Shown piece by piece: positions 4,274-31,506 of a DNA stretch of 44,997 nt. Each line of letters opens with the position of its first letter. Position 1 is the stretch's first letter. The stretch comes from Candidatus Gastranaerophilales bacterium (GTDB lineage: Bacteria > Cyanobacteriota > Vampirovibrionia > Gastranaerophilales > Gastranaerophilaceae). The stretch lies in contig CALVEB010000016.1 in NCBI GenBank assembly GCA_944326465.1, positions 1 to 44,997 of the forward strand, in the 5' to 3' direction. Position numbers and translations under genes: made by a program. The notes below the pieces were generated by a model that had not been told where the DNA came from, searched no databases, and saw only the letters and a list, made by a program, of their open reading frames with translations.

Positions 4274-4585
4274 ATGGGTTATCAAGAACTAATAACTAAT
4301 GGCATAAAACGACTACGAACAAAAAGCAAATTAACGCAGGAACAGTTCGCAGAAAAAATTAATATGAGTGTTCAAGGTTATAGAAATATTGAGCATAACC
4401 GCTATTTACCTACTGCTGAAACTATTGATAAAATCTGTGAAGTATTTAATATTGAACCAGTTGAATTACTGTTACCAGAACCACAAGAGAACCTCGACAA
4501 AATACGGGAACTAATTAATAATAAATTGTGCAACTGCGACTTAGATAAACTCATAAGAATTAACAACATGATAGACCTAATGTAA
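4274..4585 (+). CDS. XRE-family transcriptional regulator of the element
   Basis: 103 residues. Residues 8-65 form a Cro/C1-type helix-turn-helix: IKRLRTKSKLTQEQFAEKIN, MSVQGYRNIEHNRYLP and AETIDKICEVFNIEPVELL are the canonical five-helix pattern. The C-terminal 35 residues are a helical tail (probable dimerisation) with a CNC motif. It is divergent from the SLOG gene with 74 bases between starts, so it may control that promoter and the recombinase promoter 12 bases downstream. No Shine-Dalgarno precedes the ATG. Confidence 0.85.
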   Translation: MGYQELITNGIKRLRTKSKLTQEQFAEKINMSVQGYRNIEHNRYLPTAETIDKICEVFNIEPVELLLPEPQENLDKIRELINNKLCNCDLDKLIRINNMIDLM

Positions 4586-11750: not shown

Positions 11751-11766
11751 CTATTTTGAAATCCTC

Positions 11767-11800
11767 TTAATCACTTAGTCACTCAATCACTTAATCACTT
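11767..11800. repeat. Octamer repeat (CACTTAAT type), non-coding copy
   Basis: About four degenerate 8-bp units (CACTTAGT, CACTCAAT, CACTTAAT and partial flanks). The same octamers occur in opposite orientation inside the prepilin gene at 12884-12922, so the two arrays form an inverted pair flanking most of that gene. Confidence 0.7.
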
Positions 11801-11830
11801 CGAACTAAGAGGCCAAGCCTCTTAGTTCGA
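11800..11830. repeat. Perfect 14-bp inverted repeat over the prepilin stop codon
   Basis: Arms TCGAACTAAGAGGC (11800-11813) and GCCTCTTAGTTCGA (11817-11830) with a 3-nt centre. It contains the last two sense codons and the TAA of the prepilin gene. No T-run follows on the minus strand, so it is not an ordinary terminator. Hairpins or cruciforms just after the variable region are needed for target recognition in the Bordetella phage diversity-generating retroelement; the resemblance is in position and symmetry only. Confidence 0.7.
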
Positions 11831-13066
11831 CACACATATAGCGCGGCTGTAGCTGTTGTACTTGAGGTTCCAGTAACCGTCACCGCCGCCCGTGTAGGAA
11901 GTGTAGAAGACCCGGCCGTACGCGCCATTCGCACCGTTCTCCTCACTGGACCAGTAGTTGTAGCCATCATATTTGATTGGAGGGTTCTCTTGGTATGCTT
12001 CCTTTACTTTAAGACCTGTTTTGTCTTCGTTCGCTCCTATTGTCACTGCGCTTCCATCGCTTGAGTTTACATATAATTCACTCGCTAATTGGGCTAATTG
12101 CGCTCTTGTTGGTAATTCCATGCCTTTCTGGTCGCATGCTTTTTTAGCTCCTGCCCAATAATTTGTTGAGCAATAGTCGTTGCTATCTCCTGTAGGGTCG
12201 TATGCTTTATCTTCTTCTGTTCCGTCTGAACATGTATTTATTGCTGTATTAGCAGCAAATTCTGTTGACCAGCACATGTCTCCTATCGGGTTATCGCAAG
12301 TTGAAAAGGCTACGCCTGAAGATAATTCAATATCCTTTCCAACTCTATTAGGCCCCTTCTTACCGTTTACATCTACCATGTATGCCATGCAGGATACTTG
12401 TGAACCTTGATCCTCTATAGGATCTTCATAAGGGCATTCCGGCTGGTATGCCATAATTACTGTTGTTCCATCCACAACCACAAAGCTCATGGTATTTGTA
12501 TTAGTTTGCCATTCCTTTAATCCCATGCTGCTTGCAGAAGTGAGACCGTTTGTTTCGATTTCTTCCGGCGCATCATCTTTACCTGTTGTAACGATTTTAG
12601 GTGAATAGCATTTGTTAATGTCTGTGTTATCGCAGGTTTTGATTACTTTCATATAGTTTTTGAAAGTGTTCATGAAATCCTCTGTAGTATCATGCCCTGT
12701 CATTACACCGTCTACGTTCATGCGTCTTACTGTTTCAGTTAACTTCTTTTCCCACAGGTCTTTTGCCGTAGACCATGCTTTTTCATTGTGGTTTTGGATG
12801 AGCCCCGGAAGGGTTAACGCGGCAACGATGCCGATAACCGCTAACGTAATGAGAACCTCGGCTAACGTAAACGCGGCCGCTTTTGAAGTGATTAAGTGAC
12901 TAAGTGATTGAGTGATTAAGTGGTTACTGGAATTAGTGCCTGTGCCTTCGTGACGATTAACGTCTTTTTCAATTGGCTGGATTGCTTCGCGTTCGCTCGC
13001 AATTGTACATGTCAAGCAATTAGGTTCTGTTTTTACGTTTCTGTTTTTGGTATTCTTATTTTTCAT
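11822..13066 (-). CDS. Prepilin-like surface protein with long leader and lectin-like C-terminus
   Basis: 414 residues; AGGAG is well placed before the ATG. Residues 66-92 are a type IV prepilin/pseudopilin N-terminus (FTLAEVLITLAVIGIVAALT) with Glu5 of the mature pilin and Ala at the cleavage -1 position. The leader before it is 65 residues, far longer than usual, and partly encoded by octamer repeats (HLITQSLSHLITSK). The body holds paired cysteines and blocks shared with the paralogue at 30165-31187 (VDGTTVIMAY, VNGKKGPNRVGKDI, YWAGAKKAC). The last 45 residues (YNYWSSEENGANGAYGRVFY onward) resemble DUF1566/Fib_succ_major or C-type-lectin-like tails. Probably assembled by the type IV pilus or type II machinery and exposed outside. 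Divergent from an XRE regulator. Confidence 0.85.
   Translation of the reverse strand: MKNKNTKNRNVKTEPNCLTCTIASEREAIQPIEKDVNRHEGTGTNSSNHLITQSLSHLITSKAAAFTLAEVLITLAVIGIVAALTLPGLIQNHNEKAWSTAKDLWEKKLTETVRRMNVDGVMTGHDTTEDFMNTFKNYMKVIKTCDNTDINKCYSPKIVTTGKDDAPEEIETNGLTSASSMGLKEWQTNTNTMSFVVVDGTTVIMAYQPECPYEDPIEDQGSQVSCMAYMVDVNGKKGPNRVGKDIELSSGVAFSTCDNPIGDMCWSTEFAANTAINTCSDGTEEDKAYDPTGDSNDYCSTNYWAGAKKACDQKGMELPTRAQLAQLASELYVNSSDGSAVTIGANEDKTGLKVKEAYQENPPIKYDGYNYWSSEENGANGAYGRVFYTSYTGGGDGYWNLKYNSYSRAICVSN
11843..11965 (-). other. Variable-region-like GC3-rich tail of the prepilin gene
   Basis: In these 41 codons (from GGC-TAC-AAC-TAC to CGC) 35 end in G or C and none ends in A, while the codons before are AT-rich. 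AAC, TAC, AGC and GGC dominate, as in diversity-generating retroelement variable regions derived from AAC-rich templates. The segment ends 13 bases before a perfect hairpin. No template repeat or reverse transcriptase is in the window. A recent transfer of this domain would also explain the composition. Confidence 0.45.
12884..12922 (-). repeat. Octamer tandem repeat inside the prepilin leader
   Basis: On the coding strand about 4.5 degenerate units of 8 bp: CACTTAAT, CACTCAAT, CACTTAGT, CACTTAAT, CACTTC. It encodes NHLITQSLSHLITS directly before the prepilin motif. Gain or loss of one unit changes the frame, because 8 is not a multiple of 3. Inverted copy at 11767-11800. Confidence 0.75.
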
Positions 13067-13106
13067 ACATGTCTCCTAAAATATCAATATGATGTTATTT
13101 TATATC

Positions 13107-13135
13107 AATATAATGATACCTGCAATCATTATATT
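13107..13135. promoter_or_regulatory. Perfect inverted repeat between prepilin and XRE genes
   Basis: AATATAATGAT (13107-13117), 7-nt centre ACCTGCA, ATCATTATATT (13125-13135). A related direct copy (ATCAATATGATG) lies at 13083-13094. Placed between divergent genes, it is the likely operator of the XRE protein. Confidence 0.6.
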
Positions 13136-13161
13136 CACTTATATTACATTTGTCAACCAGA

Positions 13162-13173
13162 TATAATTTAACA
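13162..13173 (+). promoter_or_regulatory. -10 box 6 nt from the XRE start codon (leaderless mRNA)
   Basis: TATAAT at 13162-13167, then TTAACA, then ATG at 13174. Transcription from this box would start at or next to the A of ATG, and no Shine-Dalgarno exists. TTTGTCAACC stands just upstream; the same pattern occurs at 31265-31287. Confidence 0.6.
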
Positions 13174-13416
13174 ATGGAAAAAAATTTTAAATATATACTG
13201 GGACGTAACATTAAAGCGGAAAGAATGCGTAAAGACATAACTCAGGAACGATTTGCCGAATTAATTAACATGAGTCTGAGTTATGTAAGTAAACTTGAAC
13301 AGGGGCTTATCTCGCCTACGGCAATAACTCTTTTTAAAATGGCTGATATTCTAAGTATTCCAATGGATGAATTTTTTAAAGGTATAGATGTTAAACAATT
13401 GAATACTTATGAGTGA
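13174..13416 (+). CDS. XRE-family regulator divergent from prepilin gene 1
   Basis: 80 residues from the ATG at 13174; an upstream in-frame start would overlap the promoter. Residues 8-64 form a Cro/C1 helix-turn-helix (YILGRNIKAERMRKDITQER, FAELINMSLSYVSKLEQGLI, ILSIPMDEFF), nearly the whole protein, so it is a minimal DNA-binding dimer without a sensor domain. It is a paralogue of the 72-aa regulator at 31288 (shared GRN/ARN-IKAER, LEQGL/LERGL, FKG/LKN ends) with the same genomic position next to a prepilin gene. It likely represses itself and/or the prepilin gene through the 13107-13135 repeat. Confidence 0.88.
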   Translation: MEKNFKYILGRNIKAERMRKDITQERFAELINMSLSYVSKLEQGLISPTAITLFKMADILSIPMDEFFKGIDVKQLNTYE

Positions 13417-30164: not shown

Positions 30165-31187
30165 TTAGTTAAGTTCACAGACAGCATAATGTCCGGCAAT
30201 ACCTCTAGATGAGTTATTATTGGAGCCAAAAGAAAAATTATAGTCGGGGGCATATTTACAAATATAGCTGCCTTGAGCGTCGCTACCAGTGCTTGATTCA
30301 TAATTTCGCCAAAAACATACGTCGTCTGTTTGTCCTTGACCATAATTAGTAAACATATTTAGAAGCATTTTATCGTTATCACCATTATTAAGTTTATCTA
30401 CGCCGCCGCATTGTTTAACAGCCCCGGCCCAATAATCACCTTCTGAACAATGCTGGTAACAGCATCGTTTTATACCTAAATCATCTTTGATTTTTTCGCA
30501 CTCTTCTGCAGTAATTGGAGTGGGAATAAAAGGTTGAGAATAACATTTACCATTAATTTCATATACACAAGCATATCCCGGGCCATTTGTATTTAATAAT
30601 CCTATATCTTCTCCAATTTTATTAGGTGCTTTAGCTCCATTTGTTTCTAATATCGCAGAAATACAGCTTGTTGTCGCATTTGTAACCGGTTTGTTATTTT
30701 CTGTTGACCATTGATAATTTTTTAATGGATTTAAATGTTCACACTTTGTATTGTATGATAAAATCATTGATGTACCATCGGCTGTTATTATTCCAACGTT
30801 TGGAGAACTATAATTACTTGTATCATTCGATTGCATCTGCAGTTGAAGTCCGGTTTGTAAAGTAGAAACATCTATTTTTTCATCATCATTAACTTGAATA
30901 GTATTATAAGACCAACAAGAAGCCAATGATGGAACCTGACAAATTTTAATTATTTTAAAATATTTTTTTAGTTCATTAACAAAAGCTGCAGTACTTTCAT
31001 AAGGACCTATTAAATCTTCTGCAGCCATTTTTTCCGTGGCTTGTGTTAATTTATATTTCACTGTACGAATTTTTTCAGCACGTATTTTTTTTTGAATATT
31101 TGGTATAAAAGAAATTATAATTAAAGAAACTACACCAACTATTGTAATTGTGACTAAAATTTCTGCTAAAGTAAATGCTTTTCTCAT
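30165..31187 (-). CDS. Prepilin-like surface protein 2
   Basis: 340 residues, AAGGAG before the ATG. A short normal leader MRKA is followed by the mature N-terminus FTLAEILVTITIVGVVSLII, with Glu5 and Ala at the cleavage -1 position. The body shares blocks with the prepilin at 11822: ADGTSMILSYNTKCEHLNP, ETNGAKAPNKIGEDIG, GDYWAGAVKQCGG. It has many cysteines, probably disulfide-bonded outside the cell. The C-terminal 45 residues (VCFWRNYESSTGSDAQGSYI...) align with the variable-looking tail of prepilin 1 but use ordinary AT-rich codons. Divergent from its own XRE regulator. Confidence 0.85.
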   Translation of the reverse strand: MRKAFTLAEILVTITIVGVVSLIIISFIPNIQKKIRAEKIRTVKYKLTQATEKMAAEDLIGPYESTAAFVNELKKYFKIIKICQVPSLASCWSYNTIQVNDDEKIDVSTLQTGLQLQMQSNDTSNYSSPNVGIITADGTSMILSYNTKCEHLNPLKNYQWSTENNKPVTNATTSCISAILETNGAKAPNKIGEDIGLLNTNGPGYACVYEINGKCYSQPFIPTPITAEECEKIKDDLGIKRCCYQHCSEGDYWAGAVKQCGGVDKLNNGDNDKMLLNMFTNYGQGQTDDVCFWRNYESSTGSDAQGSYICKYAPDYNFSFGSNNNSSRGIAGHYAVCELN

Positions 31188-31220
31188 ATTTTACTCCTTA
31201 TTTAAATCCTAATTACTAAT

Positions 31221-31249
31221 AGTAAACTACTATTAATTAGTAGTTTACT
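31221..31249. promoter_or_regulatory. Perfect 12-bp inverted repeat between prepilin 2 and XRE
   Basis: AGTAAACTACTA (31221-31232), centre TTAAT, TAGTAGTTTACT (31238-31249). Placed 27 nt before the XRE promoter box and 33 nt before the prepilin start, it is the likely operator for both. Confidence 0.7.
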
Positions 31250-31275
31250 CGCTTAATTAAATTTTGTCAACCGCG

Positions 31276-31287
31276 TATAATTTCATT
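31276..31287 (+). promoter_or_regulatory. -10 box 6 nt from the XRE start codon (leaderless mRNA)
   Basis: TATAAT at 31276-31281, TTCATT, then ATG at 31288: same geometry as at 13162-13174, with TTTTGTCAACC upstream in both. No Shine-Dalgarno. Confidence 0.6.
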
Positions 31288-31506
31288 ATGAAAGATGAAC
31301 GAAATAAAATATTCGCCAGAAATTTGAAGGCTGAGCGCTACAGAAAAAATTTAACACAATCTGAATTAGCTGAGTGTATAAATGTTAGCGAAAGTACTAT
31401 CAGTCTTTTAGAAAGAGGGTTACAAACACCTTCTATTTTTCTTGTTTTTGACATAGCAAAAACTTTCGGGATTGATATAAACGAATTATTGAAAAATATC
31501 AGGTAA
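31288..31506 (+). CDS. XRE-family regulator divergent from prepilin gene 2
   Basis: 72 residues from the ATG at 31288. Helix-turn-helix throughout: KIFARNLKAERYRKNLTQSE, LAECINVSESTISLLERGLQ, TPSIFLVFDIAKTFGIDINE. A minimal Cro/C1 protein without effector domain, paralogous to the 80-aa regulator at 13174. Probable autorepressor and prepilin regulator through the 31221-31249 repeat. A terminator shared with ftsZ lies 38 bases after the stop. Confidence 0.88.
   Translation: MKDERNKIFARNLKAERYRKNLTQSELAECINVSESTISLLERGLQTPSIFLVFDIAKTFGIDINELLKNIR

Follow-up and report, generated by a model that had tools for sequence, protein, structure and literature searches.

Taken singly, repressors of minimal size encoded divergently from their targets, controller genes without leaders and surface proteins diversified by diversity-generating retroelements (DGRs) are all known. 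In Enterococcus faecalis, the minimal repressor CylR2 acts on a divergent promoter with which its own promoter overlaps (PMC3709268). Like the regulators described here, which it matches in sequence, this 66-residue XRE repressor is encoded divergently from its target, the cytolysin operon, and the two promoters overlap. Unlike them, CylR2 belongs to a single system in which the membrane protein CylR1 is its partner and the inducer is known, whereas the present modules comprise tens of separate pairs with no partner seen, prepilin cargo and apparently leaderless starts. A second likeness is to controller (C) proteins, which are commonly leaderless and autoregulate via two operators (PMC4824078). 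C.BclI, C.AhdI and C.Csp231I share with our regulators their fold (TM 0.91), a length of 70 to 80 residues, an apparently leaderless mRNA and two candidate operators; they differ in belonging to restriction-modification systems, while here there is no restriction or methylase gene, the divergent gene encodes a prepilin, and the boxes change from module to module.

DGRs that act on several surface proteins are also described. In photosynthetic cyanobacteria, one template serves several CLec-type targets at scattered genomic sites (PMC7517822). By comparison, the genome studied here has about 30 targets in 2 Mb, these being prepilins that have private regulators, and the reverse transcriptase (RT) and the template-plus-avd lie on different contigs. 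In Bacteroides, DGR-diversified type V tip pilins are described in a review (PMC12632263); there too a retroelement rewrites a pilus protein of gut bacteria, but the pili are of type V rather than built from N-methylated type IV-like prepilins, and the passage concerned leaves private regulators unmentioned. The main text of Roux 2021 mentions neither pili nor Gastranaerophilales, and literature on Gastranaerophilales or Melainabacteria together with prepilins or DGRs came down to a termite paper listing pil genes and otherwise passing mentions. The literature searched, a partial collection and hence weak evidence, held no description of private prepilin regulators in Gastranaerophilales, nor of the combination reported below: most prepilins with a private regulator, a cassette that recurs in several species beside unrelated prepilins, and some 30 gene ends open to rewriting.

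Two modules with overlapping divergent promoters

The window analyzed here is a 44,997-nucleotide stretch of a Candidatus Gastranaerophilales genome (contig CALVEB010000016.1). It contains two modules, at 11822-13416 and 30165-31506, in each of which a prepilin gene is divergent from a gene for a minimal XRE protein. These coordinates, which had been proposed from the letters of the window, are confirmed. Both prepilins carry the N-terminal cleavage/methylation motif with a hydrophobic helix after it, and both regulators, XRE1 and XRE2, are HTH_3 proteins.

In module 1, prepilin 1 (414 aa, 11822..13066, minus strand) scores above the cut-off for both Pfam N_methyl and TIGR02532, and its Shine-Dalgarno sequence, AGGAG, lies at 13073-13077. 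The N-methylation motif is preceded by a 63-aa leader, a repeat-derived extension (12878..13066, minus strand) that represents a leader cassette common to several other prepilins. The predicted prepilin-1 promoter, TTGACA-17-TATAAT, matches the consensus at 12 of 12 positions with a spacer of 17 nt (-35 at 13151..13156 and -10 at 13128..13133, both minus strand). On the plus strand, the 80-aa regulator XRE1 (13174..13416) follows a TATAAT -10 at 13162..13167 that is conserved among orthologues.

Module 2 is built in the same way. Prepilin 2 (340 aa, 30165..31187, minus strand) is above the TIGR02532 cut-off, with a Pfam N_methyl score just under the cut-off, and no variable region was detected in it. 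Its Shine-Dalgarno sequence, AGGAG, is at 31194-31198, and its predicted promoter, TTGACA-17-TAAACT, has 10 of 12 consensus matches (-35 at 31265..31270, -10 at 31242..31247, minus strand). The 72-aa regulator XRE2 (31288..31506, plus strand) is again preceded by a TATAAT (31276..31281, plus strand), the core of which is invariant in the alignment. Neighbours of the two regulators in the window's open reading frame (ORF) lists are the prepilins and minD- and ftsZ-type genes, the latter assigned by reading. A further XRE-type gene, of 108 aa, is present at 4283-4465 of the window with no listed prepilin alongside.

As had been noticed, a gap of 6 nt separates TATAAT from the ATG of both regulators (13174 and 31288), no Shine-Dalgarno sequence is present, and both genes appear to be leaderless. 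An in-frame TTG start further upstream is excluded because the distance from TTGTCAA to the ATG shifts by 1 to 2 nt between orthologues, so that the frame is lost. Also borne out is a shared box just upstream, TTGTCAACC, which lies 3 nt before TATAAT in both modules. A place for it in the regulator promoter is not supported: on promoter anatomy, TTTGTCAACC is the prepilin -35, which it spells as its reverse complement, GGTTGACAAA, and it abuts the -10 from which the regulator would be read in the other direction. As a regulator -35, TTTGTCAACC was rejected, since just 6 nt separate it from that -10.

Candidate operators and a proposed switch for each prepilin

Each regulator had been predicted to act on a perfect inverted repeat between the two genes. 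Both repeats are indeed present, and both exceed dinucleotide shuffles (p 0.02 for module 1 and p 0.01 for module 2), but they do not appear to be the binding units: each is a composite, and relatives conserve other boxes. The module-1 repeat (13107..13135, arms 13107-13117 and 13125-13135; repeats and operators are given without strand) combines a candidate operator with the -10 region and is not preserved as such in relatives. Its module-2 counterpart (31221..31249, arms 31221-31232 and 31238-31249) joins half of one site to half of another.

The conserved units are TATCAATATATTGATA for XRE1 versus TAGTAGT-N2-ACTACTA for XRE2. For XRE1, putative operator O1 (TATCAATATAATGATA, 13103..13118) is near-invariant across 5 orthologous loci, and O2 (TATCAATATGATGTTA, 13082..13097), a direct repeat of it 21 bp away, is conserved in part. 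For XRE2, O1 (TAATAGTAAACTACTA, 31217..31232) is conserved in orthologous loci, and a second half-site region (TAGTAGTTTACT, 31238..31249) lies over the prepilin-2 -10. The XRE1 loci, five in other genomes (four with a prepilin alongside, plus G001), keep TATCAATATA.TGA, ATATTCACTTA, TTGTCAA and ATATAATTT, and the XRE2 loci, 13 of which were aligned, keep TAGTAGT-N2-ACTACTA, CTTAA, TGTCAA and TATAAT 6 to 7 nt before the ATG.

When the genome was scanned, the XRE1 box matched without mismatch at O1 alone and with one mismatch at O2; one-mismatch copies also exist elsewhere. The best match to the XRE2 box was its own O1, with one mismatch. An equally good second copy of either box was found nowhere else in the genome. 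XRE1 and XRE2 are 45% identical and their boxes are dissimilar, in agreement with the original prediction of paralogous proteins with different operators. With operator and regulator conserved together, each regulator appears, on this comparative evidence, to act on its own prepilin alone, as had also been proposed. Such a genome would offer many naturally occurring repressor-operator pairs that look orthogonal, with repressors of about 70 residues.

In both modules, O1 is predicted to cover about +4 to +19 of the prepilin transcript, a placement that assumes a start about 7 nt past the prepilin -10. Because the conserved operators sit at or just past the prepilin transcription start, repression of each prepilin by its own regulator is likely. 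That the regulators instead activate their prepilins seems very unlikely to us. Minimal XRE proteins can activate. C proteins do so (PMC4824078). Against such a role here, the prepilin promoters are already near consensus (an exact TTGACA serves as -35 in 27 of 40 modules, and module 1 matches at 12/12), and the operators are placed over the -10 or downstream of it.

We favor, with a probability of about 0.72, a model in which every such prepilin has a private repressor switch made of overlapping divergent promoters, a leaderless regulator and an exchangeable prepilin cargo. The prepilin would be transcribed from a strong sigma-70-type promoter (TTGACA-17-TATAAT), and a private XRE protein of 70 to 80 residues would be made in the opposite direction, as a leaderless mRNA, from a -10-type promoter set against the prepilin -35. 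The regulator would block the prepilin promoter by binding its private operators, which coincide with the prepilin start or follow it closely; as these operators are clear of the regulator's own -10, its synthesis could continue. Since the promoters overlap, probably only one is used at a time, which would favor an on or an off state. What the sequences themselves show is the pairing across the genome, the anatomy of promoters and operators, the joint conservation of operator and regulator, the exchange of cargo and the marks of a DGR; we infer DNA binding, repression, leaderless starts, mutual exclusion and a switch deciding which variant pilin is displayed; the promoter geometry further suggests bistability, and positive autoregulation is possible. 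The regulators are minimal and have no sensor domain. Such modules could amount to a modular choice of which prepilin is made, as the original prediction had it.

Regulator fold and class

The anatomy of the modules, as far as sequence can tell, fits a CylR2-like divergent minimal XRE repressor. The XRE2 model (pLDDT 96) has C.BclI as its best PDB match (TM 0.91), with C.AhdI also close, and XRE1 and XRE2 have the traits of controller proteins: a minimal HTH fold in the model, and, judged by sequence only, leaderless anatomy and paired operators.

These resemblances bear on a reading in which the regulators, like controller proteins, are chiefly autoactivators. From a site at about -63 relative to its own start, each would recruit RNA polymerase to its own weak promoter, and repression of the prepilin would be a by-product of polymerase occupancy. 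Besides the closest folds being C.BclI and C.AhdI, the regulators have no good -35, XRE1 has TQE at the place of the C-protein SQE, and C proteins are commonly leaderless, with two operators, and self-activating (PMC4824078). XRE2, however, has TQS there and not SQE, the conserved boxes lie at or past the prepilin start, the place expected for direct repression, and across the genome no conserved operator position relative to the promoter was found. Autoactivation as the chief role is in our judgment rather improbable.

Other contexts in which small XRE proteins might be sought were also considered. No restriction or methylase gene is linked to XRE1 or XRE2 in the window's ORF lists, and reading of the neighbouring ORFs gave no toxin-like ORF adjoining either regulator. 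Their neighbours, again by reading, are housekeeping genes rather than a phage context, and the RstR model scores below its cut-off. Phage and plasmid collections returned no close relative and one distant viral match, and a phage or plasmid origin was rejected for want of a close relative there.

Pairing of prepilins with regulators across the genome

The genome (2.07 Mb in 52 contigs) encodes 53 prepilins by TIGR02532 and 41 XRE relatives of XRE1; its sequence was inspected in the stretches surrounding such hits. Of these 41 genes, 23 are divergent from a prepilin less than 900 nt away (chance rate 3%; binomial P about 1e-24). Reading the ORFs upstream of every prepilin placed a small DNA-binding-type regulator divergent from 40 of the 53, so that the pair is far from peculiar to the window, as the original prediction required. 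Chance pairing, with the boxes as AT-rich noise, can be set aside. In its favor are the AT-richness of the region and the XRE1 boxes with one mismatch found elsewhere; against it stand the strength of the pairing, its absence from other families and the orthologue alignments, which refute it by column-by-column conservation across species.

The regulators of the 40 modules fall into 29 short (51 to 91 aa) and 11 longer (104 to 135 aa) proteins. Among the short ones, 25 of 29 are without a Shine-Dalgarno sequence, and in 23 of 29 a TATAAT-type hexamer (at least 5/6) is located 3 to 9 nt before the start, 6 nt being the commonest distance. In the longer class, a Shine-Dalgarno sequence is present in 9 of 11 and a comparable TATAAT -10 in 0 of 11. 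Part of the regulators are HTH_26 proteins; 6 of 10 less typical regulators tested had no confident Pfam match, and those without a match are so named by size, position and weak similarity. One prepilin (G000:C39:411-476) faces a 51-aa protein that is AbrB/MazE-like by eye, not XRE, and has no Pfam match.

In only 12 of the 40 modules does a palindrome exceed shuffles at p 0.05 or below (combined p 2e-7), and a profile anchored across modules had no clear peak and no single fixed operator position.

Cassettes and their cargo in other genomes

Fifteen further metagenome-assembled genomes, most of them labelled Gastranaerophilales or Melainabacteria, have an XRE2 orthologue (70 to 93% identical), and in 14 of them a recognizable prepilin is adjacent. 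Median identity at these loci is 82% for the regulators versus 26% for the adjacent prepilin bodies, and beyond the regulator just 10 of 120 locus pairs have a flanking gene in common. To judge from these alignments, regulator, operator and promoter are a portable cassette, reused with different prepilins and usually at another site; they would move as one while the attached prepilin is exchanged. In G001, XRE1 and its operators are kept, and the prepilin remnant reads as a 3' end only.

A possible trace of exchange is visible within the prepilins themselves. In about ten prepilins here, a truncated FTLAE-like motif leads through repeat-derived codons into a second complete prepilin start. Long leaders are found at window 12878-13066 and at G000 C39:411, C12:58569, C29:17179, C9:15636, C11:49017, C1:35769, C32:1019, C8:13393, C4:91943 and C15:29418. 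We read the double starts as probable scars of an in-frame swap, in which a resident prepilin was replaced by another body. Octamer-type repeats (TAATCACT, CAATCACT and TAGTCACT) occur at window 11766-11800 and 12890-12920, that is, within the prepilin-1 leader, with inverted copies directly 3' of the prepilin-1 stop codon. A second repeat type, AAGGGAATAAGGGATTAAGG, is present in the leaders of other prepilins, and a similar copy lies downstream of prepilin 1.

Repressors in phage morons keep their cargo silent. By analogy, the regulator could be a guard on a spreading prepilin cassette, silencing a prepilin that is costly or would jam when the module reaches a cell or site new to it, with pilin choice not its role. 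Modules occupying different sites in different species, the scars of in-frame replacement of resident prepilins and the missing sensor domain would all suit a guard. Regulator and operator persist in many species through changes of cargo, however, so the regulator is not tied to one prepilin, and G001 retains its regulator without a prepilin; nor was a recombinase seen next to the window modules, or a close relative found in the phage and plasmid collections, with their one distant viral match. We consider the guard reading unlikely.

In G012, of the same family and another genus, a regulator accompanies 17 of 30 sampled prepilins, and in two genomes from other families of the order it accompanies 0 of 20. 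The 1.9-Mb genome of G012 has 91 prepilin motif matches.

Prepilin ends as DGR targets

Many prepilins vary in their C-terminal ends at NNC-type codons while the frame is fixed. A template predicted by writing A at the variable places matches contig C12 at 134 of 135 bases. By this comparison prepilin 1 is a DGR target: against the template repeat (G000:C12:10070-10208), its variable region (VR; 11834..11966, minus strand, at the 3' end of the gene) is changed at 22 of 52 adenines and at 0 of 81 other bases. Genome-wide there are about 30 VRs, mostly in prepilins, with 655 of 1639 adenines changed versus 173 of 2640 other bases; in about eleven VRs of near-full length, adenines alone are changed. 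A 14-bp perfect hairpin (TCGAACTAAGAGGC-TTG-GCCTCTTAGTTCGA; 11800..11830, minus strand) spans the prepilin-1 stop at the 3' end of the VR, and most VRs tested are followed by a hairpin of 10 to 15 bp over the stop codon, with none at the template repeat.

Template and avd occupy G000:C12:9491-10208. The Avd protein adjoining the template matches phrog_3206 (1.5e-22) and exceeds the Pfam bAvd cut-off, with NCBIfam Avd below its own. An RT of 377 aa with the motifs GLPIGNLTSQ and YVDD is encoded at G000:C9:49541-50671; a template beside it on C9 was sought and not found, and because the template sits on C12, RT and template-plus-avd are on separate contigs. A second, different RT is encoded on contig C49. 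Related sequences were detected in 2 of 5 other genomes of the genus and in 0 of 33 genomes searched outside it.

The variable domain of prepilin 1 gives weak Lectin_C and Lcl_C matches. A PDB profile search with its C-terminal domain returned nothing below E 1, and a prepilin-1 fold predicted from the one sequence failed (pLDDT 35) and was unused.

DGR-type ends are found in 20 prepilins, 16 with a regulator and 4 without. The dominant cargo of the cassettes here would be a prepilin with a C-terminal end subject to rewriting by the DGR. A wider proposal, which we put forward tentatively and would not call probable, is a two-level display in which dozens of one-gene bistable switches choose the prepilins, the DGR continually rewrites the exposed ends of about 30, and bodies enter the cassettes in frame. 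Such a display system, if true, would belong to a non-photosynthetic gut symbiont of the cyanobacterial lineage, and it offers a testable model with two independent routes by which the surface of such a symbiont could be varied.

One further sequence, L124 (G000:C8:105-243), matches the template to the last base, with 25 of 52 adenines and 0 of 87 other bases changed and no hairpin after it; it could represent either another template or an atypical target.
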